Notes under the pieces: model-generated
What the model was told of the DNA's origin: nothing
The model's database searches: none
What the model saw: only the letters and a program-made list of their open reading frames with translations
Program-made: the position numbers and the translations under genes
Origin: a virus
IMG/VR virus record: IMGVR_UViG_3300042453_003626
Span: 1-27,687 of that record
Strand: one strand, 5' to 3'
DNA: 27,687 bases
In this document: piece after piece, positions 525 to 24,944 of the stretch
Layout of the letters: each line of letters opens with the position of its first letter
How positions within the stretch are numbered: position 1 is the first letter of the stretch

Positions 525-2048
525 ATGTCGCACATTAAAGTTAAAAAACGTAATGGCAAAATAGAGCCATTGACGCTAGAAAAATGGCAAAATCAAATAT
601 CAAAAATTTGCCAGGGAATATCAGATGTTAGTCAATCAATGATTGAAATCAAAGCACAGCCACACTTTTATGATGGTATTACTACAAGAGAAATAGATAA
701 TATCACCTTAAGAGCATGTGTGGATCTAATAGATATCGAAAGTAACCCAGATATTGGTCATGTAAACTATCAATACGTAGCAGGTAGACAACGTGTTAGT
801 ATGTTACGCAAAGACGTATATGGATCCTATACGCCACCAAGACTATATGAAATAGTTAAAAAGAATGTTGAAGTTGGACTGTATACACATGAACTACTAG
901 AATGGTATACCGAAGAAGAATGGAATAAGATGGACGCTATGATCGATCATAGCAAAGATGAACTTTATAGTTATGCAGCAATTGAACAATTAGTTGAAAA
1001 ATATCTTGTCAAGAATCGTACAACTAAACAGATTTATGAAACACCACAAGTTAGATATATGATAGCTGCCGCCACTGTTTTTCATCGTGAGGAACCACAA
1101 TCAGCTAGAATGCGTTACATAAAGGAATATTACAATGCCGCCTCTGATGGTTTATTTACCCTTGCTACTCCTGTGCTTGCTGGTCTCGGCACTCCTACCA
1201 AGCAGTTTAGCAGTTGTGTTCTTATTAGGAGTGATGATGATCTTGATAGTATATTTGCTAGTGGCGAAATGATGGCCAAATATGCCAGTAAACGTGCTGG
1301 CATTGGTCTTGAAATCGGTCGCGTCAGACCGTTAGGTGCGCCTATCAGAAAGGGTGAAATACTACATACTGGATTAGTTCCTTTCTTGAAGAAATGGTTC
1401 AGCGATTTACGCAGTTGCAGTCAGGGCGGAATCAGAAATGCAAGTGCAACCATTACCTATCCCATTTGGCACTATCAATTTGAAGACCTAATCGTTCTTA
1501 AGAATAATCAAGGTACCGATGAAACTAGAGTACGTCATTTAGACTATAACGTAGTACTCAGTGGACTATTCTTAAGGCGATTTAAAAACAAAGAGAATAT
1601 TACATTCTTTGATCCGAATGAGGTTCCTGATCTTTATGAAGCATATTATCGTGATATTGCTTTGTTTGATCATTTGTATGTTCAATATGAAAAGAGAACC
1701 GATCTTCGTAAGAAGACTATGAATGCTGAAGATGTTTTCAAGGGAGGTATACTGAAGGAACGTACTGATACAGGAAGAATTTACATTACCTTTATTGACA
1801 ATGTACAGAAACAAGGACCATTTGATACTAAACTGTATCCCATCTATCAGAGTAATCTGTGTCAGGAAATTCTTCTTCCCACAAAACCATTCAAATCGTT
1901 GGATGACGAAGGTGAATTTAAATTGACGTTAGATACTGGTCAAATAATAACTTTGCCTGGGCAGCACAAAGTAAGATTAAAAAACGGTACTCAAAAGAAG
2001 GTACGAGAATTAACTGAAAATGATGATATAGAGGATTTACTTATGTAA
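525..2048 (+). CDS. nrdA: Ribonucleotide reductase class I large subunit, N-terminal piece (split NrdA)
   Basis: N-terminal two-thirds of the catalytic subunit that reduces ribonucleoside diphosphates to deoxy forms. Residues 5-95 match the ATP-cone (KKRNGKIEPLTLEKW; HFYDGITTREI). The barrel follows, with C231 in QFSSCVLI (E. coli C225) and the SNLCQEI active site (N444, C446 thiyl position, E448). Recognisable NrdA sequence ends at TKPFKSLDDE (about residue 461), just before the second redox cysteine, which is on the next piece (2889-3857). Residues 463-507 are foreign to NrdA. They read like the second half of an N-intein (KLTLDTGQIIT, a His, then KKVRELTENDDI), but without the catalytic Cys1 block. 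Splicing therefore looks impossible and the enzyme is probably assembled from two polypeptides, as described for Aeromonas phage Aeh1. Weak SD (AGAGAAAAA) before ATG 525. Confidence 0.95.
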   Translation: MSHIKVKKRNGKIEPLTLEKWQNQISKICQGISDVSQSMIEIKAQPHFYDGITTREIDNITLRACVDLIDIESNPDIGHVNYQYVAGRQRVSMLRKDVYGSYTPPRLYEIVKKNVEVGLYTHELLEWYTEEEWNKMDAMIDHSKDELYSYAAIEQLVEKYLVKNRTTKQIYETPQVRYMIAAATVFHREEPQSARMRYIKEYYNAASDGLFTLATPVLAGLGTPTKQFSSCVLIRSDDDLDSIFASGEMMAKYASKRAGIGLEIGRVRPLGAPIRKGEILHTGLVPFLKKWFSDLRSCSQGGIRNASATITYPIWHYQFEDLIVLKNNQGTDETRVRHLDYNVVLSGLFLRRFKNKENITFFDPNEVPDLYEAYYRDIALFDHLYVQYEKRTDLRKKTMNAEDVFKGGILKERTDTGRIYITFIDNVQKQGPFDTKLYPIYQSNLCQEILLPTKPFKSLDDEGEFKLTLDTGQIITLPGQHKVRLKNGTQKKVRELTENDDIEDLLM

Positions 2049-2072
2049 TTTAATTCATCCCAGTGTATATAG

Positions 2073-2080
2073 CATAAATA
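2073..2080 (+). promoter_or_regulatory. Putative late-type promoter before the GIY-YIG gene
   Basis: CATAAATA, one mismatch from the T4 late promoter TATAAATA, lies in the 54-base gap between the first nrdA piece and the endonuclease gene. An AAAGGAG ribosome-binding site follows at about 2087-2093. This would let the endonuclease be expressed independently of nrdA. The assignment rests on sequence similarity only. Confidence 0.4.
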
Positions 2081-2102
2081 CTTCATAAAGGAGTAATATT
2101 CT

Positions 2103-2879
2103 ATGAAATACGCTGGATTTATTTATGAATGGACAAACATGAAAACAGGTTCTAAATATTTAGGAAGTCACAAAGGAACTGTTGACGATGGATATATTGG
2201 TAGTGGTAAAGCTTTTTTAAAAGCGTTAAAAAGACATGGAGTTTCTTCTTTTACCAGAGAAATTTTAGAATTTGTTGAGCATGAAACGGATATTTTTAAA
2301 AGAGAACAGTATTACTTAGACGAACGTCAATGTGCTACAAGCAGAAAATACTATAACATAAGTCCAACAGCGGGTGGCGGAGACAGTGGTGCTGGCGATA
2401 AAATAAGTAAAACTAACAAATTATTATTTGCTACTGGAAAAAGAGTTGCAAGAAAGGGTATACCACTTTCAAAAGAACAAAAAGAAAAGCTATGCGATGA
2501 GTGGCTAGTTGTTTTTCCAGATGGTCAAGAAATTATAATTAAAAACATGCTTGAATTTTGTAAACAACATAATCTAAATCCTTCTCGAATGAGTTCTATT
2601 GCTAGAGGAGAAAAAGCTGGTCATCATAAAGGATACAAATGTAAAAAACTAACAAATAATCGCAACGTTAAATACGAGTATAAAGAATATAGATATAAAT
2701 CAGACGAAGAGAAGAAAAAAATCAATAGCGATGCGGTAAAAAAAGCAAAAGAATTAAATGCTACTCCGAAAATTGAATACGATGGGATTGTTTACACCAG
2801 TTTGATTAAGGCGATTGAAGCAACTGGATTGAGTAGATATCTGTTGATAAAAAATGGCAAACTTTTGAGAAATAATTAA
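2103..2879 (+). CDS. GIY-YIG homing endonuclease between the nrdA pieces
   Basis: Free-standing mobile endonuclease of 258 aa. The GIY-YIG domain spans about residues 4-95: GFIY with Y8, KYLG with Y19, the GYIGSGKAFLKAL segment typical of phage enzymes, Glu68 in FKREQYY and N85 in YYNISPTAGGG. The C-terminal half has two NUMOD-like DNA-binding segments: about 140-185 (LEFCKQHNLNPSRMSSIARG, then KGYKC) and 226-256 (IEYDGIVYTSLIKAIEATGLS). Its own SD (AAAGGAG) and late-type promoter mark it as an independent gene rather than a translational fusion. Sitting exactly at the nrdA break, it probably cuts nrdA alleles lacking the insertion and spreads by homing; the break itself protects its own genome. 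T-even mobE is an HNH enzyme at a related place, so this is a different endonuclease family at a similar site. Confidence 0.93.
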   Translation: MKYAGFIYEWTNMKTGSKYLGSHKGTVDDGYIGSGKAFLKALKRHGVSSFTREILEFVEHETDIFKREQYYLDERQCATSRKYYNISPTAGGGDSGAGDKISKTNKLLFATGKRVARKGIPLSKEQKEKLCDEWLVVFPDGQEIIIKNMLEFCKQHNLNPSRMSSIARGEKAGHHKGYKCKKLTNNRNVKYEYKEYRYKSDEEKKKINSDAVKKAKELNATPKIEYDGIVYTSLIKAIEATGLSRYLLIKNGKLLRNN

Positions 2880-2888
2880 GGTATAAAA

Positions 2889-3857
2889 ATGAAAATAATT
2901 AAAAAAGAAACTATAAGAGAATCAGGAAAAGTGGCACTTTGTACTCTAGGAAGTATCAATTGGGGTTCATTCCGTAATCCAGAGGACATGCGCCGTGCAT
3001 GTAGAATTCTTGCTCGTAGTCTTAACAACATTTTGGACTATCAAGATTTCTTAAGTATTCAAAGCAAGTTGAGTAATGAAGAGATTCGTCCTTTGGGTAT
3101 TGGTGTAACTAATCTAGCTTATTGGCACGCTAAGCGTGGACTAAAATATGGTGAGAGGGAAGCTCTTGCTGAAGTTAAATCATGGATGGAACATCAGGCA
3201 TACTATCTAACAGAGGTAGCAGTAGAGCTGGCCAAAGAACGTGGAAAATGTTTACATAGTGATGAAATGCGTTATGGGCAAGGCATTTTCCCATGGGAAT
3301 TACGTGCAGAAGGTGTTAATGAACTTACTGATTTTACACCAGAATTAGATTGGGAAAATCTAAGAACTGAAATGAAAACTCATGGTGTTCGTAATGGCAC
3401 ATTGATGGCTATTGCACCAGTTGAATCTAGTTCAGTGGTTATCAATAGTACTAACGGCATAGAGTTGCCCATGAGTTTAATTACTACTAAAGAAAGTAAA
3501 GCTGGTAGTTTTACTCAAGTTGTTCCAGAATATCAAAAGCTGAAGAGCAAGTATCAATTAATGTGGGAACAAAAAGATTGTATAGATTATCTAAAAACGG
3601 CGGCGGTGTTGGCAGCATATGTTGATCAAAGTATTAGCACAAATACATTCTATTCTCCAAAACATTTCGCAGATAAGAAAGTTCCAGCTACACTAATTGC
3701 AAAGAACATAATGCTTGCTCAAAAGTTTGGATTGAAAACTCTGTATTATAGTTTGATTGATAAATCAGGCACAAAGATAAGTGTTGAACAACCTAACACA
3801 ATAACTGTTCAAGAAGAAAAAATAAACGAGGAATACTGCGAAAGCTGTGTTCTCTAA
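2889..3857 (+). CDS. nrdA: Ribonucleotide reductase class I large subunit, C-terminal piece (split NrdA)
   Basis: C-terminal third of NrdA. From residue 13 it aligns directly to E. coli NrdA: GKVALCTLGSINWG carries C18 (E. coli C462, second active-site redox cysteine), then LLDYQDF-type sequence, IRPLGIGVTNLAYW, THGVRNGTLMAIAPVESSS, ATNGIE-type STNGIELP, DQSISTNTFY and KTLYY with Y286/Y287 (radical-transfer tyrosines Y730/Y731). It ends with the shuttle cysteines C317/C320 in YCESCVL, which glutaredoxin (4985-5245) would re-reduce. Residues 1-12 (MKIIKKETIRES) do not belong to NrdA and resemble the start of a C-intein. The C-intein core and the terminal His-Asn are absent, so no splicing is expected. 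Eleven bases separate the stop from nrdB, so translation is probably coupled. Confidence 0.95.
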   Translation: MKIIKKETIRESGKVALCTLGSINWGSFRNPEDMRRACRILARSLNNILDYQDFLSIQSKLSNEEIRPLGIGVTNLAYWHAKRGLKYGEREALAEVKSWMEHQAYYLTEVAVELAKERGKCLHSDEMRYGQGIFPWELRAEGVNELTDFTPELDWENLRTEMKTHGVRNGTLMAIAPVESSSVVINSTNGIELPMSLITTKESKAGSFTQVVPEYQKLKSKYQLMWEQKDCIDYLKTAAVLAAYVDQSISTNTFYSPKHFADKKVPATLIAKNIMLAQKFGLKTLYYSLIDKSGTKISVEQPNTITVQEEKINEEYCESCVL

Positions 3858-12912: not shown

Positions 12913-13356
12913 ATGACACAATATGGAATTAACACACTAGATTTGCCTTCTCTATCACGCCATGCCATTGGGTTTGAGCGTATGATTCATGATTTAAATC
13001 GAACATTCGCCAGCATTCGCGGGAATGAAAACTATCCACCGTATAATGTAATTCGTGTTGATGATACACATTACACTATCGAGTTGGCAGTTGCTGGATT
13101 TGAAGAAAATGAATTAGACGTTGAACTAACCGATCGTGTATTAGTGATTACGGGCGAACGCAATACTAAAGGTGATTCTATTGGCTATGTTCACAAGGGC
13201 ATTAGTACAAGAGATTTTACCAGAAGTTTTACTTTAGCAGACAATGTTGAAGTAAAATTAGCCAGTGTGAAGAATGGAATTCTTAGTGTTGATTTGGAAT
13301 TAATAGTTCCAGAAGAACAACGTCCTAAGAAAATCGCAATTACTTTTAGTAAGTAA
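12913..13356 (+). CDS. Small heat-shock protein (Hsp20/IbpA type)
   Basis: 147 residues, ATP-independent holdase. Short N-terminal arm (LPSLSRHAIGFERMI), then the alpha-crystallin domain: YNVIRVDDTHYTIELAVAGF, ENELDVELTDRVLVITGER, a DFTRSFTLAD loop and the NGILSVDLEL signature, and an IAI (IxI) motif in KKIAITF near the C-terminus. Hsp20 is common in T4-like aquatic phages and may stabilise assembling virion proteins. It has its own late promoter and strong SD, and a terminator follows the stop directly, so it is a one-gene late unit. Confidence 0.96.
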   Translation: MTQYGINTLDLPSLSRHAIGFERMIHDLNRTFASIRGNENYPPYNVIRVDDTHYTIELAVAGFEENELDVELTDRVLVITGERNTKGDSIGYVHKGISTRDFTRSFTLADNVEVKLASVKNGILSVDLELIVPEEQRPKKIAITFSK

Positions 13357-13364
13357 TTAATCAC

Positions 13365-13386
13365 GGGGGAATAAAATTCCCCCTTT
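13365..13386 (+). terminator. Intrinsic terminator after hsp20
   Basis: GGGGGAAT (13365-13372), AAA loop, ATTCCCCC (13376-13383), then TTT: a perfect 8-bp GC-rich stem in an otherwise AT-rich region, seven bases after the hsp20 stop. It separates hsp20 from clpS. Confidence 0.85.
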
Positions 13387-13408
13387 AACATCTTATTCGA
13401 TAAATTTT

Positions 13409-13723
13409 ATGACTGAAATTGCAGATGTAAAGCCTATTGTAAAATCAAAATCAAAAACAGGACTTCAAGAACCTTCAAAATACAATGTCATATACATTAA
13501 TGATGACATCACCACAGTTAACTTTGTTGTCGAATCATTGGTAGTAATTTTTAACTATGACAGGCTAGATGCTGAAACAATGGCAAGGAAAATCAATGAC
13601 GATGGTTCAGGCATAGTAGCAACACTACCATACGAAATGGCCGAACAGAAAGGTTATGAAGTAACCGTACTAGCTAGAAACAATGGATATCCATTAATAG
13701 TCAAACTCGAATCAGAGGGTTAA
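13409..13723 (+). CDS. clpS: ClpS-like N-degron adaptor with altered pocket
   Basis: 104 residues aligning without gaps to E. coli ClpS over the core: SKYNVIYINDD (N31, D32, D33 = E. coli N34, D35, D36), FVVESL, FNYD, then the MAEQKGYEVTVLA region and the basic-strand end. ClpS delivers proteins with N-terminal Leu, Phe, Trp or Tyr to ClpAP. The phage copy keeps N31/D32, but E. coli Met40 (specificity gate) is V37 and His66 (alpha-amino binding) is N63. Its N-degron choice may be changed, or it may block the host adaptor. A short basic N-terminal tail is kept, as needed to engage ClpA. No clear SD; four bases from the exonuclease gene. Confidence 0.88.
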   Translation: MTEIADVKPIVKSKSKTGLQEPSKYNVIYINDDITTVNFVVESLVVIFNYDRLDAETMARKINDDGSGIVATLPYEMAEQKGYEVTVLARNNGYPLIVKLESEG

Positions 13724-13726
13724 TTC

Positions 13727-14260
13727 ATGGCCGATTTAATGATAGATATAGAAACATTAAGCATTAAGCCAAATGCGGTGGTTCTAACTTTAGGTGCCGT
13801 ACAATTTGATCCATTTAGTCGTGTTGAGACTTTTTTCTCTGAAACATATTTCAGATTTGACATTGAAGAACAACTTGATTTGGGCAGAGATGTTAACGAA
13901 GACACCATAGCTTGGTGGGGTAAACAATCAGACGAATCAAGACTTGAAGCATTAACTGATGAAAATCGTGTTAAATTTAGTGAATATTGTCCTACACTAA
14001 CTAAACTAGTTGTAAATTCAAAGCGAGTATGGGCACAAGGACCCACATTTGATATGTGTATACTTGAAAATCTTTACAGACAAAAAGAAACACCTATTCC
14101 ATGGCAATATTATAATGTGCGAGATAGCAGGACATTGCTGCAAGCATTAGGTGATAGTAGAAATGCCGGTGCGAAAGCACATAATGCATTAGAAGACTGT
14201 AAAGAACAAATTCGTGCTATTAAACGAGTTGTATCAAAGTTTGGATTAACTACATTATGA
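13727..14260 (+). CDS. DEDDh 3'-5' exonuclease (DexA-like)
   Basis: 177 residues of the DnaQ-like fold. Exo I is LMIDIETLS (D7, E9), Exo II is GPTFDMCIL (D109), Exo III is H152-NALED157 (DEDDh type). The AWWGKQSDESR segment (about 62-72) is shared with T4 DexA and related phage/bacterial RNase T-like exonucleases. It probably degrades DNA or RNA 3' ends. It is coupled to the next gene by ATGA. Which nucleic acid is cut cannot be read from sequence. Confidence 0.9.
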   Translation: MADLMIDIETLSIKPNAVVLTLGAVQFDPFSRVETFFSETYFRFDIEEQLDLGRDVNEDTIAWWGKQSDESRLEALTDENRVKFSEYCPTLTKLVVNSKRVWAQGPTFDMCILENLYRQKETPIPWQYYNVRDSRTLLQALGDSRNAGAKAHNALEDCKEQIRAIKRVVSKFGLTTL

Positions 14261-14559
14261 ACATAATTATTGGCGAAGTCGCTGCCGAAAAGCTAAAAGA
14301 AAATTATACAGTGTTAGAACTTGAAACTTTTAAATTAAAAGACAGCAACGTTAAAACATATTGTGTGGTAACTAACATACCTTTTGATGAATTGCCAGAA
14401 CTAGAAAATCTTAAAAAACTACATCAATCTTTTATTGACGCCTATAATAATGGCGAATATCAATTTTGTGATGATGTTATTGAATACTTACGTGGCAAAT
14501 TCGGTGGCGAATTGGATACATTTTATAATACAATTTTTGATAAAATTGTTTCAAAGTAG
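14257..14559 (+). CDS. Small conserved phage protein (100 aa)
   Basis: 100 residues, ATGA overlap with the exonuclease. Beta start (MNIIIGEVAAEKL), an ELETFKLKDSNVKTYCVVTN beta-hairpin, then a helical half (LKKLHQSFIDAYNNGEYQFC; LRGKFGGELDTFYN). No recognised family. The coupling suggests a shared task with the exonuclease. Confidence 0.72.
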   Translation: MNIIIGEVAAEKLKENYTVLELETFKLKDSNVKTYCVVTNIPFDELPELENLKKLHQSFIDAYNNGEYQFCDDVIEYLRGKFGGELDTFYNTIFDKIVSK

Positions 14560-14564
14560 CAACT

Positions 14565-14582
14565 TTGTCACAGGATTGTCAC
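14565..14582 (+). promoter_or_regulatory. Pho box upstream of pstS
   Basis: Two exact 7-bp direct repeats TTGTCAC (14565-14571, 14576-14582) separated by four bases (AGGA): the PhoB box arrangement (7+4+7). The second half-site of the E. coli phoA box is also TTGTCAC. A -10 candidate is TTAAAT (14593-14598, ten bases after the box) or TATGAT (14588-14593). SD AAGGAG 14615-14620. Host PhoB would turn on the phage pstS under phosphate limitation. Confidence 0.78.
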
Positions 14583-14629
14583 ACAACTATGATTAAATAT
14601 CATTGTTAACTAACAAGGAGAATATCATA

Positions 14630-15643
14630 GTGAAGAAGTTAATTACATTTATTATAGCAGCATTTACTGCCACAGTTACATATGCGGCTGATATCACAGG
14701 TGCTGGTGCTACGTTTCCATATCCAATTTATGCCAAGTGGGCAGAGGCGTATAAGAAAGAATCTGGCGTTGGCTTAAACTATCAAAGCATTGGTAGCAGT
14801 GGTGGCGTCAGACAGATAAATGCTGGCACCGTTACTTTTGGTGCTACCGATGCACCTGTAAAAGGTGAAGACTTGGACAAATTAGGCCAAATTCAATTTC
14901 CTGCTATCATAGGCGGCACAGTACCAATTGTAAACTTAGATGGTTTCAAGCCAGGTGAACTGCGTATTACTGGTCCAGTGTTGGCTGAAGTTTTTATGGG
15001 CACCATTACAAAGTGGAATGATCAAAAATTAGTTGCACTCAATCCAGGCAAACGTTTGCCTGATCAAAGCATCACTGTAGTACATCGTGCAGATGGTAGT
15101 GGCACTACATTCAATTGGACAGATTATCTTACCGTAGTAAGTCCAGATTGGGCACAACGTGTAGGTCGTGGTGCAGCAGTTAAATGGCCAGCAACAAGTA
15201 GCGTAGGTGGAAAAGGCAATGAAGGTGTTGCTGCAAACGTTACCCGCATCAAAGGTAGCATTGGTTATGTAGAGTATGCCTATGTAAAGAAAAACAATCT
15301 GGTGTTTATGCAACTACAAAATCGTAGCGGTCGTTGGGTAAGCCCAGATGATATCACCTTTGCGGCTGCTGCCGATGGTGCTGACTGGTTTAGTGTACCT
15401 GGCATGGGATTAAGTATTGTTAATCAACCAAATCCAAATGCATGGCCCGTATCTAGTGCAAGTTTCATCATAATGTATAAAAACCCAAAAGACAAAGAAC
15501 AAAGTGCTGATGTTATTAAGTTCTTTGACTGGGCTTTTAAGAATGGCAAGAATCTTGCTCTAGAGTTAGATTATGTGCCACTGCCAGATACATTGACTAA
15601 TCAAATACGTCAACGTGTTTGGACACAAATCAATAACAAATAA
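14630..15643 (+). CDS. pstS: Periplasmic phosphate-binding protein PstS
   Basis: 337 residues from GTG 14630, chosen because AAGGAG (14615-14620) is nine bases upstream and the result is a clean signal peptide (KKLITFIIAAFTATVTYA, cut before ADITGAGATFP). Phosphate-binding features: GAGATFPYPIYAKW, YQSIGSSGGVRQI, FGATDAPV, RADGSGTTF and GKGNEGVAA. It supplies the host PstCAB transporter and raises phosphate uptake during infection. PstS is a known auxiliary gene of aquatic phages. The sequence is close to betaproteobacterial PstS from memory. It is flanked by a Pho box and a terminator, so it is a single-gene regulon member. Confidence 0.97.
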   Translation: MKKLITFIIAAFTATVTYAADITGAGATFPYPIYAKWAEAYKKESGVGLNYQSIGSSGGVRQINAGTVTFGATDAPVKGEDLDKLGQIQFPAIIGGTVPIVNLDGFKPGELRITGPVLAEVFMGTITKWNDQKLVALNPGKRLPDQSITVVHRADGSGTTFNWTDYLTVVSPDWAQRVGRGAAVKWPATSSVGGKGNEGVAANVTRIKGSIGYVEYAYVKKNNLVFMQLQNRSGRWVSPDDITFAAAADGADWFSVPGMGLSIVNQPNPNAWPVSSASFIIMYKNPKDKEQSADVIKFFDWAFKNGKNLALELDYVPLPDTLTNQIRQRVWTQINNK

Positions 15644-16749: not shown

Positions 16750-17067
16750 ATGAAAAAAACAATTACAGCAATTGCTATACTACTAGCAACGTCTATGTCG
16801 TCTATTGCCCAAACCAAAGTAGAAAAGTCAGTTATTTGTTTTGAAACAAAAAAACTATTTGAGCTACTAATGAAGAGGTATGGTGAGCATCCTGTATTTT
16901 TAGGACAGCTTGATGACGAGGTGGCGAAGAAACTAAAATACAGTGTTGTTGTACTATACAATCCACTAGAAGATACATTTTCAATAGTGGAATTTAACGA
17001 AGGTAGAGCATGTTTACTTTCGACTGGAAATTCTGTAGAATTTTCAATGCCGAAGCCTATAAATTAA
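16750..17067 (+). CDS. Secreted small protein, paralogue 1 (105 aa)
   Basis: Signal peptide MKKTITAIAILLATSMSSIAQ, cut near AQ-TKVEK. The mature part shares an ordered pattern with the protein at 17131-17511: VIC, K-F/L-E-LLM, P-V-F-L, VVVLYNP-ED-FSI, FNE-ACLL-TGN-VEF. Two cysteines (VIC and ACLL) are conserved in both and could form a disulfide in the periplasm. No known family. SD AAGGAAA precedes the ATG. Confidence 0.82.
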   Translation: MKKTITAIAILLATSMSSIAQTKVEKSVICFETKKLFELLMKRYGEHPVFLGQLDDEVAKKLKYSVVVLYNPLEDTFSIVEFNEGRACLLSTGNSVEFSMPKPIN

Positions 17068-17071
17068 AAAT

Positions 17072-17100
17072 TTGACACTAACTAACAAAACTGCTATACT
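17072..17100 (+). promoter_or_regulatory. Strong sigma70-type promoter
   Basis: TTGACA (17072-17077), 17-base spacer, TGc extended -10 and TATACT (17095-17100). This is near consensus and would give a leader of about 24 bases before ATG 17131, with SD TTGGAG. It lies between the two secreted paralogues, so the second can be expressed alone. Confidence 0.8.
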
Positions 17101-17130
17101 GAAATTCCTAAAATAGTTGGAGTTTTGTAA

Positions 17131-17511
17131 ATGAAAAAGTTTGTTATCTCGATTAGCTTGTTGATGATCGCGGGTGTGGCATTTGCACAACAAAAATCGG
17201 GGTCTAACAAAACATGGCAATTGACTCATAAAGTCATATGTGACACGCCCGAAAAAATGTTTCATCGATACATGGAGTTTCTGGCTCAACGTCCCATTTT
17301 TTTAGCTAACGCAAGCCCAACACTTTCTCTTTCAAAGAAAATTCCTGCTGGTGGAATCATTGTGCTTTACAATAAGAATAAGGATCGCTTCTCAATATTT
17401 CAGTTCAACGAAAACGCTGCTTGTTTGCTTGCTCAAGGAAATACAGTTGAATTTGGCAATGAGGTTGATTTTGATCCTGAAATTCTAAATCAAATTCGTG
17501 AACAAAAATAA
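17131..17511 (+). CDS. Secreted small protein, paralogue 2 (126 aa)
   Basis: Signal peptide MKKFVISISLLMIAGVAFA, cut before QQKSG. Mature pattern as in its neighbour: HKVICDTPEKMFHRYMEF, RPIFLANASP, GGIIVLYNKNKDRFSIFQF, NENAACLLAQGNTVEFG. It has an extra acidic tail (DFDPEILNQIREQK). The pair arose by duplication and has diverged strongly. It is under its own strong promoter, so probably early. Role unknown; the location suggests an envelope target. Confidence 0.82.
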   Translation: MKKFVISISLLMIAGVAFAQQKSGSNKTWQLTHKVICDTPEKMFHRYMEFLAQRPIFLANASPTLSLSKKIPAGGIIVLYNKNKDRFSIFQFNENAACLLAQGNTVEFGNEVDFDPEILNQIREQK

Positions 17512-18865: not shown

Positions 18866-19582
18866 ATGAACAATTTTGCACAGTATAATCTTGAGATTTT
18901 CAATGCTTTTTGCGCCCATCAGAAAAAACAGGACATAATTGATAAGAAAAAACATATTATAGAATCGGTTGAAGACTACTATAATAAAGTATCTGACACC
19001 TATCTTTTTATTGGGTTTAATCCAGCAATCATAGACATGCATCGTAATAAAAAAATCTATGTTTGTGAAATTGATACAGTAATTGATAGGTGGTTTACCG
19101 ATAATGATATAAACGTTACCGTAGTTAATTCGCTTGATAAACATTATGATTGTGTAATAGCAACTGAAGAATATTTGACATTTGTTAACGATGAAGCCGA
19201 GCAATTGAACAAAATTAAATTACTATGTGATTTAAGCAATGAAATGCTGATTACTACCGTAAAAGATTATAAGAATCAAGATTTCAAAGAACGTGAATAT
19301 AGTCAGCCAGCGGTAATACGAAATAATGAACTTATGGCATATGTTGAAATGCATGATTGGTCACATCACGATAGAAATGCATGGAAATCTTATCTATACA
19401 AGCTAGAAAAATTAAATTCTGCTTGTTTGGGAGAATGGAATAGACGTACACTGTATTTCAAACAATTTGCCAAATTTGCATATGACAACGGTGCTAGTGA
19501 TTTTCTTGTACATAAAAACATCATGTATAAGAGCATATTGAAGAAAAATTATGAACATGTAATTAGTGTTAGATTCGAATGA
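18866..19582 (+). CDS. Conserved phage protein, possible degenerate methyltransferase fold (238 aa)
   Basis: 238 residues. The middle reads like a Rossmann sheet: TYLFIGFNPAII (residues about 47-58), KKIYVCEIDTVIDRW, VTVVNSLDKHYDCVIATEEYLTF, NEMLITTVKDYKNQDF. This resembles SAM-methyltransferase order, but the glycine-rich motif I (GxGxG) is missing, replaced by GFNP. The end (HDWSHHDRNAWKSYLYKL; WNRRTLYFKQFAKFAYDNG) is rich in aromatic residues and may be a conserved surface. I recall similar unannotated proteins in T4-like marine phages. ATGA coupling to the first FxLRW-like gene joins it to the array. Confidence 0.75.
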   Translation: MNNFAQYNLEIFNAFCAHQKKQDIIDKKKHIIESVEDYYNKVSDTYLFIGFNPAIIDMHRNKKIYVCEIDTVIDRWFTDNDINVTVVNSLDKHYDCVIATEEYLTFVNDEAEQLNKIKLLCDLSNEMLITTVKDYKNQDFKEREYSQPAVIRNNELMAYVEMHDWSHHDRNAWKSYLYKLEKLNSACLGEWNRRTLYFKQFAKFAYDNGASDFLVHKNIMYKSILKKNYEHVISVRFE

Positions 19583-19887
19583 CAAATGCAACGAAATTAG
19601 ATCGCAGACATACTGGATATGGACATTTTACATACTATGTTAAACCAAGGGTCAGTTATCTAGAGTATAACAACAAGCAAACTTTCTATGAATGGAGAGA
19701 CTGGTGTTGGGAAACATGGGGCTCAAGTAAAGAGATAGATGAATGGCTAAGCGACATCAGATCACGAACGCTAGTAAAATCAGTATCACATAATGAGCAT
19801 TGGGTTTGGCAGAATGATGAACATTCCTGTAGAATATTTCTCAGAACTGATGCTGAATTAGCATTATTTTTACTTAAGTGGAAATAA
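19579..19887 (+). CDS. Array member 0: divergent FxLLKW-ending protein (102 aa)
   Basis: First and most divergent member of the downstream family. It has the W-C-x-E helix (WRDWCWETWG), a polar insert, and the closing block VWQNDEHS...IFLRTDAELALFLLKWK; the family end FxLRWS appears here as FLLKWK. It has many Trp residues. Start ATG 19579 overlaps the previous stop (ATGA). Its last codons are TTA CTT AAG TGG AAA TAA, without the SD-like codons used in the coupled members, as expected because the next gene has its own promoter. Confidence 0.75.
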   Translation: MTNATKLDRRHTGYGHFTYYVKPRVSYLEYNNKQTFYEWRDWCWETWGSSKEIDEWLSDIRSRTLVKSVSHNEHWVWQNDEHSCRIFLRTDAELALFLLKWK

Positions 19888-19914
19888 AGTAAAAATCCGA
19901 TTTTACACATTTAG

Positions 19915-19944
19915 TTGACATAAATTATTTTCTAATGTTAGAAT
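19915..19944 (+). promoter_or_regulatory. Strong sigma70-type promoter of the array
   Basis: TTGACA (19915-19920), 18-base spacer, TGt extended -10 with TAGAAT (19939-19944). One of the best promoters in the window. Transcription would start about 20 bases before ATG 19971 and run through the overlapped array genes to about 22326. Confidence 0.82.
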
Positions 19945-19963
19945 AGAAAATAAATTCAATGTA

Positions 19964-19979
19964 ATTTGACATGTCAAAT
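19964..19979. repeat. 16-bp perfect palindrome over the first array start codon
   Basis: ATTTGACATGTCAAAT is a perfect 16-bp palindrome whose centre CATG contains the ATG of member 1 (19971). It lies about 20 bases after the -10, the right place for a dimeric repressor operator. As RNA, it could fold only weakly because it has no loop. Confidence 0.6.
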
Positions 19980-20192
19980 ACAGTAAAATTAAAACATGAC
20001 CTTACGTATGAGCAAGAACGTTGGCTGACAGAAAATATCGGCCCTAAACTTTATCATCTTCATTACAAATACGGCGGCGCAGGCTGGCATGTAGTTCGTG
20101 ATTTTGACTCAAAGTACTCAAAGAGTTTTAATCACTATATTAGTTTCGAGGACGAACAAATAGCAACATTGTTTATTTTGAGGTGGCTATGA
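19971..20192 (+). CDS. Array member 1: FxLRW-family protein (73 aa)
   Basis: Shows the family plan clearly. An N-terminal helix with a W-L/C-x-E-x-x-G core (ERWLTENIGP) is followed by a variable middle (YHLHYKYGGAGWHVVRDF) and the constant C-terminal block (HYISFEDEQIATLFILRWL): strand, F-x-[DN]E-x-D/x-A, helix F-x-L-R-W. No known domain is recognised. It is the first gene after the strong promoter and palindrome. The last codons, TTG AGG TGG CTA TGA, also hold the SD and part of the start of member 2. Confidence 0.85.
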   Translation: MSNTVKLKHDLTYEQERWLTENIGPKLYHLHYKYGGAGWHVVRDFDSKYSKSFNHYISFEDEQIATLFILRWL

Positions 20193-20386
20193 GAGTTCAT
20201 GATTTTGGACTTGGTAAAACACTCATCTATAGATATAGAGTGGATATTCCTCGAGAGAATACAACTTCAATGGAAATTGTAGGAAAATGGTTAGAGGAAA
20301 ATAATATACAATGTTCACTAATTCCAGGACACGTTTTCTTTAGAAATGAGCAAGATGCTATGATGTTTATTTTGAGGTGGTCATGA
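20189..20386 (+). CDS. Array member 2: FxLRWS protein (65 aa)
   Basis: Start ATG 20189 overlaps the previous TGA; the GTG at 20183 lies inside the SD and is unlikely to be used. Basic N-terminus (MRVHDFGLGKTLIYRYRVD), then MEIVGKWLEENNI, the W-L-E-E helix, and the end VFFRNEQDAMMFILRWS. A short middle makes this close to the minimal form of the family. Confidence 0.84.
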   Translation: MRVHDFGLGKTLIYRYRVDIPRENTTSMEIVGKWLEENNIQCSLIPGHVFFRNEQDAMMFILRWS

Positions 20387-20601
20387 AGACTATAAATTTG
20401 GGAACTATAGAAGCCATCTTTAGTCGTGATGATCCACAATATACGTGGTGTGAGCAACATATTGGCAAAGGTGCATATTTTGATAGCAGAGCGTTTTGGG
20501 ATCCTGAAGTGATGTGGTGTGTTGAGCGAAGTCATGGAAACATTTATTTTACTTTTCGCAACGATGAACATGCTACGTTGTTTATATTGAGGTGGTCATG
20601 A
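20383..20601 (+). CDS. Array member 3: FxLRWS protein (72 aa)
   Basis: Start ATG 20383 in the TCATGA overlap. It carries two W-C helices (YTWCEQHIG and VMWCVERSHG) and the end YFTFRNDEHATLFILRWS. The second W-C motif may reflect internal duplication of the helix. Coupled to member 4. Confidence 0.84.
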   Translation: MKTINLGTIEAIFSRDDPQYTWCEQHIGKGAYFDSRAFWDPEVMWCVERSHGNIYFTFRNDEHATLFILRWS

Positions 20602-20870
20602 AAAAAGACTGCATAGGTGATTTTGTTCAAACATGGAGAGATTGGGATAATACTCAGCACAATAATTGTCCTATGTGGCATACTAGATTTGCCGAGGCAG
20701 GCTATTATCGTGCAATTGCTTCTGAGGCATCTACTCGCTATCGTTGGCGTGCCCTGCTAGTATGGTGTCACGAACAATTCGGAGGTGATCACTATTTTTG
20801 GTCGGGAGATAATATCTTTTGGTTTGAATCTGAACAGAATGCTGTGTGGTTTGCATTGAGGTGGTCATGA
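20598..20870 (+). CDS. Array member 4: FxLRWS protein (90 aa)
   Basis: Start ATG 20598. The N-terminal 40 residues (MKKDCIGDFVQTWRDWDN; CPMWHTRFAEAGYYRA) are specific to this copy. Then LLVWCHEQFGGDHYFW and the end FWFESEQNAVWFALRWS. It has twelve Trp, an unusual share. Overlaps member 5. Confidence 0.84.
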   Translation: MKKDCIGDFVQTWRDWDNTQHNNCPMWHTRFAEAGYYRAIASEASTRYRWRALLVWCHEQFGGDHYFWSGDNIFWFESEQNAVWFALRWS

Positions 20871-21058
20871 GTTACATTTTTTACTCACCTATTTCTAAAC
20901 CGATTCTGAAAACAGAAGAAATGTTAAAGTTTGCTAAAGCAAATTGTCCTAGTTATATTACAAATGATTTAGAAGTGCGTGGTCAAAATAATTGGTATTA
21001 CCGTTTTTACTTCGGTAATGAGAAAGACTATATTGTATTTGTATTGAGGTGGTCATAA
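20867..21058 (+). CDS. Array member 5: FxLRWS protein (63 aa)
   Basis: Start ATG 20867, seven codons into the longer open frame, chosen because the junction SD and ATGA overlap match the other members. The helix position has EEMLKFAKANCPS instead of W-C. End: RFYFGNEKDYIVFVLRWS. It stops with TAA, and member 6 begins one base back (TAATG). Confidence 0.82.
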   Translation: MSYIFYSPISKPILKTEEMLKFAKANCPSYITNDLEVRGQNNWYYRFYFGNEKDYIVFVLRWS

Positions 21059-21465
21059 TGTTAAAACTAATACAGAAACAATATCGTGAGTGGCGAGAAC
21101 GTCGTTTTCTAGCAGCACATGGTTGCGAAACTAGAGAACAATATGATTACAGATACGATCCGGGTATCAATCGTCGTGCTAATAGAGTAAAAGATTTTTA
21201 CCATGGGTATCCATATGTATATTGTTTTACTGATCATAGGCATCTAATTTATTATTGGGATCTAGGATATGATGGCACTTTTGAACTCAGAAAGTGGTGT
21301 GAGGGAAATTGCACTGATAAGTACAGATTTGATTTTCATCGTGTCTTAAAAACGCCAAGTACATCAAATGAATGGGCAATAAATGAAATTGGTGGAGGAG
21401 ATTATATTTTCTTTGCCTGCAAAAATCCAAAAGATTACACTTTGTTTTTGTTGAGGTGGTCATGA
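21058..21465 (+). CDS. Array member 6: long FxLRWS protein (135 aa)
   Basis: The longest member. An added N-terminal region of about 70 residues is basic and aromatic (KLIQKQYREWRERRFLAAHG; GYPYVYCFTDHRHLIYYWDL). Then LRKWCEGNCTDKYRFDF and the end YIFFACKNPKDYTLFLLRWS. Start ATG 21058 follows the TAATG overlap. The extra part may be a separate module fused before the common domain. Confidence 0.83.
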   Translation: MLKLIQKQYREWRERRFLAAHGCETREQYDYRYDPGINRRANRVKDFYHGYPYVYCFTDHRHLIYYWDLGYDGTFELRKWCEGNCTDKYRFDFHRVLKTPSTSNEWAINEIGGGDYIFFACKNPKDYTLFLLRWS

Positions 21466-21806
21466 GTAATGTACTTATTCCTTTAATAAGAGTCCTTTAT
21501 CCTACATTAATTGCTCAACAAATAGTAGGAGTTCAACCTATGACAGGTGTTTTACATACTGACTATTTGCTTGATATAAAATTTGAATATCATGTTCACC
21601 CGCGATATAAATTTTCTAGAAAATGGCATATAGGTGAAGCAAAATCAGTCGTGGATAAAACTGTCGTAGTAGAATGGTGCGAACTACATTTTGGACCACA
21701 CCCAAAAAATCCAGATGCATGGTGTCGTTGGTATAGATATTCAACATCAAAATTTTACTTCAGAGACGAAAAAGATTACACATTGTTTTTGTTGAGGTGG
21801 TCATGA
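21462..21806 (+). CDS. Array member 7: FxLRWS protein (114 aa)
   Basis: Start ATG 21462 in the TCATGA overlap. A hydrophobic N-terminal region (NVLIPLIRVLYPTLIAQQIVG) is unlike the other members. Then VVVEWCELHFGPHPKN, AWCRWYRYS and the end FYFRDEKDYTLFLLRWS. The last 17 residues are nearly the same as in members 6 and 8, suggesting these three are the youngest duplicates. Confidence 0.84.
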   Translation: MSNVLIPLIRVLYPTLIAQQIVGVQPMTGVLHTDYLLDIKFEYHVHPRYKFSRKWHIGEAKSVVDKTVVVEWCELHFGPHPKNPDAWCRWYRYSTSKFYFRDEKDYTLFLLRWS

Positions 21807-22117
21807 ACATAATAAAAAATCAAATTAATGTTAAACCCCGCATGATTTCGGCCAAATGGACTTTAGAAGAACTTGAAGAACTTAATATAGATAAAGAATT
21901 TTCTAAAATTCTACAGGAACAAATAGACTGGGAGATACTTGTTGAAAGTCGAATTCTTCACGGAGGATGGCACAAGGTCACATTATCTAAATTTGATAGA
22001 TCAGAGGTTGAAGCATGGTGTAAGGAACATATTTGCGGAGAGTATGAATCACGTGGTTCTACTTGGGTGTTTAAAGAAGAAAAAGATTACATATTGTTTT
22101 TGTTGAGGTGGTCATGA
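21803..22117 (+). CDS. Array member 8: FxLRWS protein (104 aa)
   Basis: Start ATG 21803. Charged N-terminal helix (WTLEELEELNIDKEFSKIL), then EVEAWCKEHICGEYESRGS and the end WVFKEEKDYILFLLRWS. The typical junction leads into member 9. Confidence 0.84.
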   Translation: MNIIKNQINVKPRMISAKWTLEELEELNIDKEFSKILQEQIDWEILVESRILHGGWHKVTLSKFDRSEVEAWCKEHICGEYESRGSTWVFKEEKDYILFLLRWS

Positions 22118-22326
22118 TTGATATAGAATTCAACAAATTACATCAAGGTATTATTAAGAGTGGTGTCGATATTAATAAAATTGGTCAGTGGTTAGACGAA
22201 CATATGCCTAATCCACCATTACCAGAAGTTCAACGATGGACTATAGGATATAGTACAGATGGTAGAGTTGGATTAAGATTTGATGACGAAAGAGACGCTA
22301 CTGTTTTTTTGTTGAGATGGTCATAG
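22114..22326 (+). CDS. Array member 9: FxLRWS protein, end of coupled block (70 aa)
   Basis: Start ATG 22114. Helix KIGQWLDEHMPNPPLPEVQ, then GYSTDGRVGLRFDDERDATVFLLRWS. The final codons are TTG AGA TGG TCA TAG. Arg is now AGA, which weakens the SD (GAGATGG), and TCATAG carries no overlapping usable start. The next gene is 72 bases away. The peptide end stays LRWS. The gap 22327-22398 has only a 5-bp stem (CTTGT/ACAAG). Confidence 0.84.
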   Translation: MIDIEFNKLHQGIIKSGVDINKIGQWLDEHMPNPPLPEVQRWTIGYSTDGRVGLRFDDERDATVFLLRWS

Positions 22327-22398
22327 TAAACTTGTAAGAAACAAGAACTTCTGCCAAAATTAAAGTACGATTCAAATCTTTTTTGCTGTCTGAAAATT

Positions 22399-22632
22399 AT
22401 GCCATACCAGTTTCAAACACATTCTGACATTGATGAAGTCGCAAATTGGCTGATAGAAAATATTGGCAAACAAATCTATATCAATAGTTGCAACGTACCG
22501 TTTCAAAAGCGCACACTAGCTGGTCTTGGTGCAGGTTGGCGAATTCTTCCGTACGGTGTAGGTACAGGAATTCATTTTATTGAGATAGATGATCAAAAAA
22601 TATACACATTAGCAATGTTACGATGGAGTTAA
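22399..22632 (+). CDS. Array member 10: uncoupled FxLRWS-like protein (77 aa)
   Basis: Helix EVANWLIENIGKQIY closely resembles member 1. Middle GLGAGWRILPYGVGTG, end HFIEIDDQKIYTLAMLRWS. The last codons, TTA CGA TGG AGT TAA, share only TGG with the coupled members but give the same L-R-W-S peptide. No SD before ATG 22399. Confidence 0.8.
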   Translation: MPYQFQTHSDIDEVANWLIENIGKQIYINSCNVPFQKRTLAGLGAGWRILPYGVGTGIHFIEIDDQKIYTLAMLRWS

Positions 22633-22639
22633 AATAATT

Positions 22640-22867
22640 ATGCCAATAGTAAAATGTTCTCCTGCTGATTTAAATCATCAAGTTCATGTATCAGATAAAC
22701 CTAATATCGCTGGCGACACAGTTTCTTGGTTATACAAAAATATGCCAGAAAATATAGCTTGGACATATTTTGGATTAGTAGACTTTAAATATCATGTCTA
22801 TTATTTTGGTAACAAATATCATGCTGAAAAATTCAGTCAACAGTTTAATGGTATAATTCAATCATAA
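22640..22867 (+). CDS. Array member 11: degenerate relative (75 aa)
   Basis: Has the W-L helix (DTVSWLYKNMPEN) and a strand-helix end (YHVYYFGNKYHAEKFSQQF) that matches FxNExxAxxF of the family, but LRWS is replaced by FNGIIQS. It is probably a diverged member that lost the terminal motif. Begins seven bases after member 10. Confidence 0.65.
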   Translation: MPIVKCSPADLNHQVHVSDKPNIAGDTVSWLYKNMPENIAWTYFGLVDFKYHVYYFGNKYHAEKFSQQFNGIIQS

Positions 22868-23903: not shown

Positions 23904-24944
23904 ATGTTTAATAACGCTGTACGTAGGCTAGGCTTTGCATGCAAATTGATTGATAATCCATCTCAAATGGACAGTATCAAGCCTAAAGATGAATGCAAGA
24001 AGTACAACACAGGTACTACCACAGTCGCATGGCTGAATCGACAGAGTGTGTCCGCTGCCGAAGATAAGTTGTGGACACTTATGAAGGACAATATTGAAAG
24101 TCTACGACTGTTGGTAGGTAAGGTAGGCACATTTGAGCCTTCACTTCGTATGGCTCGCCTATCAAGTGAAGTTTTGCCCGTGTATACTGAACCTAAGTGG
24201 CGATATTTCTACAAGCAAAGTGATGTTATCGCATATGCTGAACGGCATTTTGCCACTGTAGGTCAACTTGCCCGTGATCTGGATGTTCGGCTATCATTTC
24301 ATCCAGGACAATTCTGTGTTCTTGGCAGTGACCGTGAGGAAATAGTAAATAGTAGTATAGAGGAGTTTGAATATCATGCAGACATGGCCCGTTGGATGGG
24401 GTTCGGTAAGCAGTTTCAAGACTACAAAATCAATGTACACATTGCGGGTAGAGCCGGTGCAGAAGGCGTCAGGCGCAGCTATGCAAAACTATCACCAGAA
24501 GCCCGTAATACAATTACCATTGAAAATGAAGAAATAAGTCATGGACTTGATACTTGTTTAACTCTTAGTGATTTACTGCCTATTGTGCTAGACATACATC
24601 ACAATTGGGTACGAGAAGGAGAATACATTGAAACTACTGATTCGCGTGTTAAACGTGTTGTTGATAGCTGGCGCGGCGTTAGGCCTGTTATACATTACAG
24701 TGTTAGTCGGGAAGATTATCTTGCTGGCCACCCCAATAATGTCCGTCCCTCCCGTGATGCGTTAATTTCTGGTGGTCTAAACAAACAGCAACTACGAGCC
24801 CACAGTGATTTTTATCACAATCGTGCGGTTAACGAGTGGGCTGTAAGTTTTCTTGAACTATCAGACATTATGGCAGAGTCAAAAGCAAAAAACCTTGCCA
24901 GTTTTGAATTAGCAAAACAAGCAAAAGAATTAGGCTTTCTTTGA
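23904..24944 (+). CDS. uvdE: UV damage endonuclease UvdE
   Basis: 346 residues, TIM-barrel repair enzyme that nicks DNA 5' of UV photoproducts. Start LGFACKLI, then AWLNRQSVS, FEPSLRMARLSSEVLP, the metal-binding series LSFHPGQF, NVHIAGRAG, TIENEEIS, LDIHHNW and VIHYSVSRE, the order expected of UvdE/UvsE. A phage copy would repair UV damage in surface-water conditions. Codon use seems richer in G+C than in the array genes, which could mean a later acquisition; I have not calculated this. Its 3' end overlaps the minus-strand gene by 15 bases. Confidence 0.95.
   Translation: MFNNAVRRLGFACKLIDNPSQMDSIKPKDECKKYNTGTTTVAWLNRQSVSAAEDKLWTLMKDNIESLRLLVGKVGTFEPSLRMARLSSEVLPVYTEPKWRYFYKQSDVIAYAERHFATVGQLARDLDVRLSFHPGQFCVLGSDREEIVNSSIEEFEYHADMARWMGFGKQFQDYKINVHIAGRAGAEGVRRSYAKLSPEARNTITIENEEISHGLDTCLTLSDLLPIVLDIHHNWVREGEYIETTDSRVKRVVDSWRGVRPVIHYSVSREDYLAGHPNNVRPSRDALISGGLNKQQLRAHSDFYHNRAVNEWAVSFLELSDIMAESKAKNLASFELAKQAKELGFL

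Follow-up and report, generated by a model that had tools for sequence, protein, structure and literature searches.

What does a virus gain from a row of small genes that end alike and differ in almost everything before that end? The question is raised by a tandem array in IMG/VR virus record IMGVR_UViG_3300042453_003626, of which positions 1 to 27,687 (27,687 nucleotides) form the window analysed here. Between 19579 and 22632, eleven small open reading frames (ORFs; m0 to m10) on the + strand encode proteins of 63-135 aa in which a W-[CL]-x-E helix is followed by a variable middle and then by an F-x-L-R-W-S end, as the initial annotation had read from the ORFs. That annotation also proposed that duplication and diversification maintain the family, in which the end stays constant while a variable part selects targets, and this fits our finding of one fold with exchangeable N-terminal modules. 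It correctly saw that the middles differ but missed the main point, i.e., that the N-terminal parts of m7 and m8 are recognisable segments of the major capsid protein, gp23. Its idea that the variable part chooses targets agrees with exchangeable modules, but the recognisable ones appear to imitate segments of core phage proteins, not arbitrary host proteins. The pattern points to a form of molecular mimicry that has not been described before. The features that carry this finding are as follows.

21462..21806, + strand: m7, 114 aa, gp23-A module plus constant domain
21462..21584, + strand: gp23-A module of m7 (aa 1-41), like the gp23 N-arm and Gol region (described below)
21606..21803, + strand: constant β-α-β-β-α domain of m7 (aa 49-114), AlphaFold2 pLDDT ~90
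21803..22117, + strand: m8, 104 aa, gp23-B module plus constant domain
21803..21964, + strand: gp23-B module of m8 (aa 1-54), long helix at 17-54

Residues 3-30 of m7 match the gp23 family PF07068 at E 8.3e-6 (25.9 bits against a curated cut-off of 24.4) and the PHROG major head protein phrog_138 at E 1.9e-5. Relatives of m7 reach 35-55 bits and E values down to 1e-14 against Pfam gp23, with matches spanning 28-90 positions only, and such homology is present in 14/40 m7-class members. When all ORFs of a related 184 kb contig (G025) were searched, the strong family matches were nearly all to gp23 (best 2e-11), and a reversed-sequence control against those ORFs gave nothing better than 0.002. 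The gp23 of that contig is matched by m7 at E 1.3e-8 and, at another segment, by m8 at E 7.6e-4; two m8-class relatives (L128/L130) match this second segment, gp23-B, in Pfam at 1.4e-8. A tblastn search of m7 against 50,697 phage records returned gp23 matches only. Judged from these alignments, the gp23 homology of m7 and its relatives is secure.

Three segments of gp23 recur across arrays: A, the N-arm (profile 2-60); B (profile 132-227), modelled in m8 as a long helix; and C (profile 301-354), found in relatives at a Pfam E value of 7.9e-4. At least 20 contigs carry them, in front of several distinct C-terminal classes, and A and B are often found within one array. The same genomes encode a full gp23 separately, and across 11 full gp23s from array-bearing contigs the N-arm is nearly invariant. 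The array proteins hold segments only, with no full-length HK97 fold, which rules out that they are themselves capsid proteins.

What carries these segments is a constant C-terminal domain. AlphaFold models built from 40 sequences for m7 and from 11 for m8 agree on strand-helix-strand-strand-helix over the last 50-60 residues, with a predicted local distance difference test score (pLDDT) of ~90 or more, and the m7-class and m8-class profiles align to each other by hhalign (97.3%, E 2.4e-11). Structure prediction, proposed earlier as a check for unrelated folds, thus places m7 and m8 in one fold. The FxLRWS array family is defined by this β-α-β-β-α domain together with the F-x-L-[RK]-W end, both of which are found here. 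No credible match in Pfam, NCBIfam or PHROGs covers the constant domain. A clear match to an RRM, ferredoxin-like or KH-like fold was sought in PDB: Foldseek gave nothing at E<1, and the best VIA score was Z 4.9, under the level that the tool treats as meaningful. Against BFVD, the m7 model matched A0A6J5L6V8, A0A6J7WGD3 and others with a Foldseek probability of 1.0. These uncharacterised proteins of uncultured Caudovirales most likely belong to the same family, going by the predicted structure they share with m7; they are unnamed and unstudied, with no function or array described for them. Literature searches found no description of the FxLRWS motif, the arrays or the fusions.

Are capsid segments the only cargo? 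A search keyed solely to the m7-class constant domain found 79 loci. Among 58 distinct m7-class genes sorted by regular expressions, 18 have gp23-A and 10 have gp23-C (one of them has both), and 23 have NLCxEI, the active-site peptide of the ribonucleotide reductase (RNR) large subunit NrdA, often together with a P-loop. We compared 47 modules with the 515 ORFs of a 364 kb contig (G019), and most found their best partner in gp23, NrdA or the helicase gp41; scores for gp23 lay far above shuffles, whereas several of the NrdA and P-loop scores did not. One member matches the NrdA family phrog_3987 at E 0.0012. The module peptide corresponds to the radical-cysteine loop of class I NrdA (SNLCxEIxLPT / ALCTLG), but with K after the cysteine in nearly all modules, so that it almost always reads NLCKEI, whereas array-bearing phages have C, T, A, V or Q at that place in their own NrdAs. 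An exact-pattern scan, which variants would escape, found NLCKEIxLP in 19 of 2.9 million viral contigs; each instance belonged to this class and none was an NrdA, which strengthens the NrdA reading. On these matches, imitation of NrdA by m7-class modules is likely, and that of a P-loop is weakly indicated. The proteins are not themselves reductases, being without the catalytic barrel and matching only over the short active-site loop. In tblastn searches of the phage records, m6 and an NrdA-bearing member had no match, and a P-loop-bearing member gave weak helicase hits only. At 201807-202199 of G019 (- strand), a small ORF that starts MKTFIDIESGGFKAGEMLIMQARRTGKS immediately precedes the NLCKEI/YYAPYIP member, as though the P-loop module stood as its own gene.

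The modules did not arise by recent copying from the carrier. Compared with the gp23 segment of the same contig, the A modules of G019 are 32-39% identical in aa over 38 residues and 47-50% identical in nt, and the longest shared word is 6-7 nt; own-clade gp23s, by comparison, share at least 84% of residues. The ratio of nonsynonymous to synonymous substitution rates (dN/dS) is 0.21-0.24 in gp23-A modules and 0.15-0.24 in the middle of the constant domain of the same genes, values drawn from motif-selected genes, non-independent pairs and saturated synonymous sites, which tempers what they can say for a module function. The DNA of NLCKEI modules is freely synonymous (pS, the proportion of synonymous differences, 0.82). 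Low dN/dS and the lack of DNA similarity speak for an old function of the modules that would act at the protein level.

It is tempting to see in the array an operon of two-part effectors that work by peptide mimicry, in takeover or in counter-defence, and we adopt this explanation tentatively, as the favoured one of several. Each protein would consist of the constant domain with its fixed FxLRWS tail and, in front, a variable part of its own. That part would imitate a gp23 segment in m7 and m8 and, in the same class in other phages, gp23, the NrdA active site or a helicase-type P-loop. The module would bind whatever recognises the imitated segment, and the constant domain would be the holder or a common effector part. 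We infer the mimicry function, its partner and the direction of its effect, all three.

For m7 a precedent can be named. Lit, CapRel and capsid-sensing TIR systems are bacterial immune systems that recognise phage capsid proteins. One gp23-A segment of the arrays aligns to T4 gp23 residues 94-135 (PDB 6uzc) at E 1.5e-5, a stretch that presumably includes the Gol region. Gol is a 29-residue segment of T4 gp23 that binds domains II and III of EF-Tu and inhibits its GTPase, and it enables Lit cleavage (PMC3014915). The segment is also what the exclusion protease Lit detects. Through a Gol-type interaction, m7 might either target EF-Tu, in takeover, or engage a defence that senses capsids, as a decoy, and by this analogy EF-Tu or a Lit-like sensor is the best-supported candidate partner, the sole one with a precedent. 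The array modules differ from Gol in that the segment rides on an unrelated domain of 60-75 aa in a small non-structural protein. They are ~30-70% identical to the gp23s compared, and EF-Tu and Lit would be candidate partners.

Several observations weigh against mimicry as the function of the array. A single Gol-type partner leaves the NrdA and P-loop modules unexplained. m8 alone matches gp23 weakly, and the gp23-A helix of m7 is modelled at a pLDDT of ~65 only. The NrdA match is short, 15-20 residues at the radical-cysteine loop with a best E of 0.0012-0.002, and the helicase-type P-loop match is weaker still (E 0.016 or worse). Recognisable imitation is missing in most array members, and 13/58 m7-class genes have a short or plain N-terminus by the same regular expressions; mimicry therefore cannot be what the constant domain does by itself.

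If mimicry were nonetheless the function, altered capsid segments would interfere in a novel way with the recognition of core phage proteins or, alternatively, open a new route of takeover via EF-Tu. Mimicry also offers a specific hypothesis about a large set of short jumbo-phage genes that lack annotation. A more general form of the proposal, possible though on the doubtful side, is that the coupled arrays present altered segments of core proteins that the phage itself encodes (the capsid Gol region, a capsid helix, the RNR active site, a helicase P-loop) on one scaffold, as decoys or antagonists of host factors or immune sensors.

Could the targets instead be phage proteins? The modules might be weapons against co-infecting relatives, i.e., dominant-negative pieces of the gp23, NrdA and helicase of rival T4-like phages, with the carrier spared since its own proteins differ. 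The G019 modules are indeed gp23-like yet unlike the carrier's gp23 (32-39% against at least 84% within the clade), and NLCKEI is unlike the carriers' NrdA; however, long independent evolution would likewise yield such difference, and neither an RNR active-site loop nor a P-loop is an obvious surface for interference, so we consider this unlikely. Somewhat more improbable is that the modules regulate processes of the carrier itself (capsid assembly, nucleotide synthesis, replication) by competing with gp23, NrdA and gp41 for phage partners. All the imitated proteins are core proteins encoded in these same phage genomes, but the modules are not close to the carrier's versions, and class-7 genes may be module-free.

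Explanations at the level of DNA fare worse. Short chimeric joins, several donors and an order of A and B modules that varies between arrays could all be expected of recombination scrap, fragments of conserved genes that landed by chance before small genes and were tolerated. Such debris is a poor account of modules with no DNA similarity to the carrier's own gene (the 47-50% nt identity and 6-7 nt words in G019) and with low dN/dS, and the same few segments recur rather than random parts of long genes; we rate it very unlikely. Genes for NrdA and P-loop proteins are classical homing targets, and the window's nrdA is interrupted by a GIY-YIG gene just past SNLCQEILLPTKP, next to an NLCQEI motif, which would suit modules that serve as decoys for homing-endonuclease or intein targets. 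Module DNA, though, is freely synonymous and does not resemble the genes it would mimic, and this role is highly improbable.

The interruption itself can be described further. The nrdA (525-3857) is split directly after SNLCQEILLPTKPFKSLDDEGEF by a Hint-like tail and stop, followed by the GIY-YIG homing endonuclease gene (2103-2879) and the remainder of nrdA (2889-3857). An insertion is found at this nrdA site in contig G043 (L288/L291) as well.

Why, then, are the ends so constant? Genes m1 to m9 are chained, each stop overlapping the following ATG (ATGA), and TTG AGG TGG TCA, which encodes L-R-W-S, precedes most junctions. One 15-mer combines these elements, with 6 copies in the window and 0 in 100 shuffles.

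20372..20386, also at 20587, 20856, 21451, 21792 and 22103, + strand: junction 15-mer TTGAGGTGGTCATGA, L-R-W-S end, Shine-Dalgarno and next ATG combined

We examined the Arg codon of the end at loci picked without using the junction sequence, with the window added. It is AGG in 295/362 genes that overlap or abut the next start and in 21/51 others (Fisher p 5e-9), against a background of 3.8% of Arg codons in a related genome. Thus, AGG-TGG is selected as a Shine-Dalgarno at coupled ends. Many uncoupled genes retain L-[RK]-W using other codons, as does m10, so the protein end is selected too, where no Shine-Dalgarno is needed. In addition, m1, m3, m6, m7, m8 and m10 remain similar after removal of their last five residues. 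That the constant end is a mere by-product of repeated junction DNA with a ribosome-binding site, as the six identical 15-mers and the AGG enrichment might suggest, is scarcely credible given the other codons of m10 and many uncoupled genes, the similarity that survives trimming and the common predicted fold; the codon test and the trimmed comparison rule out LRWS as junction DNA alone.

The earlier concern that the motif might arise only from junction DNA is thereby answered. The near identity of the ends, which that annotation pointed out, is partly driven by DNA, since the end doubles as a ribosome-binding site, a role that the annotation overlooked; m0 ends in LLKWK. Because the LRWS codons are the next gene's ribosome-binding site, neighbouring genes are coupled in translation, and the identical junctions allow further members to be added. 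Whatever the function of the proteins, this is a quantifiable overlapping constraint.

The remaining members and the promoter are listed here.

19579..19887, + strand: m0, 102 aa, diverged, 5' of the promoter
19915..19944, + strand: promoter TTGACA-18-TAGAAT, sigma-70-like with extended -10, consensus match only
19971..20192, + strand: m1, 73 aa, leave-one-out E 5e-11
20189..20386, + strand: m2, 65 aa, ATG overlapping the m1 stop
20383..20601, + strand: m3, 72 aa
20598..20870, + strand: m4, 90 aa, KKDCIGDF... subfamily with orthologues in other arrays
20867..21058, + strand: m5, 63 aa, SYITND subfamily
21058..21465, + strand: m6, 135 aa, REWRERRFLAAHGC...YHGYPYVYCF subfamily
22114..22326, + strand: m9, 70 aa, final coupled gene, ends TTG AGA TGG TCA TAG
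22399..22632, + strand: m10, 77 aa, uncoupled, LRWS coded TTA CGA TGG AGT

The array is genuine, and its anatomy is secure. Leave-one-out hidden Markov models (HMMs; Z=300) recovered m1-m3 and m5-m10 at E 3e-6 to 5e-12 and m4 weakly at E 0.006, whereas m0 was not significant (E 17). We retain m0 because another array (L135) holds its orthologue, with the same RHTGY...WCWETFG body and an FVLRWS end. About twelve paralogues had been counted initially; eleven stand, and the twelfth, m11 (22640-22867), is excluded, as it has no FxLRWS end, scores E 3.5 in the leave-one-out test and is absent from the 11 hits of the window profile. The putative promoter matches 11/12 consensus positions plus an extended TG, the best in the region, which bears out the earlier report of a strong promoter, but it sits after m0 and so serves m1 onward. 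Promoter-like sites in the region are no more numerous than in shuffles.

Homologous arrays occur in dozens of uncultured T4-like jumbo phages. Similar ends had been expected in other T4-like phages; tblastn against isolates was negative, but the profile did find the family in one isolate, Sinorhizobium phage Phosso, which is also the nearest isolate by gp23 (69% identity to one array-contig gp23). The window-family profile has 24 matches there at E<=0.1 (best 1.6e-8), with ends mostly FKL[RT]W, and one member (113923-114303, XYS97328.1) begins with a gp23-C, i.e., C-terminal, segment at 6.6e-6. Phosso thus has the family and one gp23-bearing member in common with the window array, but its members are scattered in short runs over a 469 kb genome and end in FKLRW, not FxLRWS. 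A pattern search of the Phosso genome for NLCxEI found none. As Phosso is cultured, the mimicry hypothesis is testable there. In phage Atu_ph07, the m7-class profile had no match, the window-family profile gave marginal matches only (best 0.005), and a regular expression for FxLRW ends found none in the first 400 kb.

At another Phosso locus (L342, ~182280-182546), a gp23-A segment (RVMPQIMAHNIVGVSPMAAPKGNIFQM) lies on an unrelated protein without an FxLRW end; the capsid segment is therefore reused outside this family. The deposited gene start at that locus is downstream of the segment. Other loci (L020, L067, L108, L077, L100 and more) have arrays of up to 18 FxLRW-ended genes. Their conserved subfamilies include SYITND, GPRWSVTDN..GTWxCFWAG and WPYKxxVNSD, among others, with N-terminal parts of no recognised source.

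Elsewhere in the window, two neighbouring paralogues of 105 and 126 aa (16750-17511) look secreted, with signal-peptide-like starts. By reading only, 12913-15643 and 23904-24944 appear to encode an Hsp20-like protein, a ClpS-like adaptor (13409-13723), a DnaQ/DexA-like exonuclease (13727-14260), a PstS-like phosphate-binding protein and a UV-damage endonuclease-like protein.

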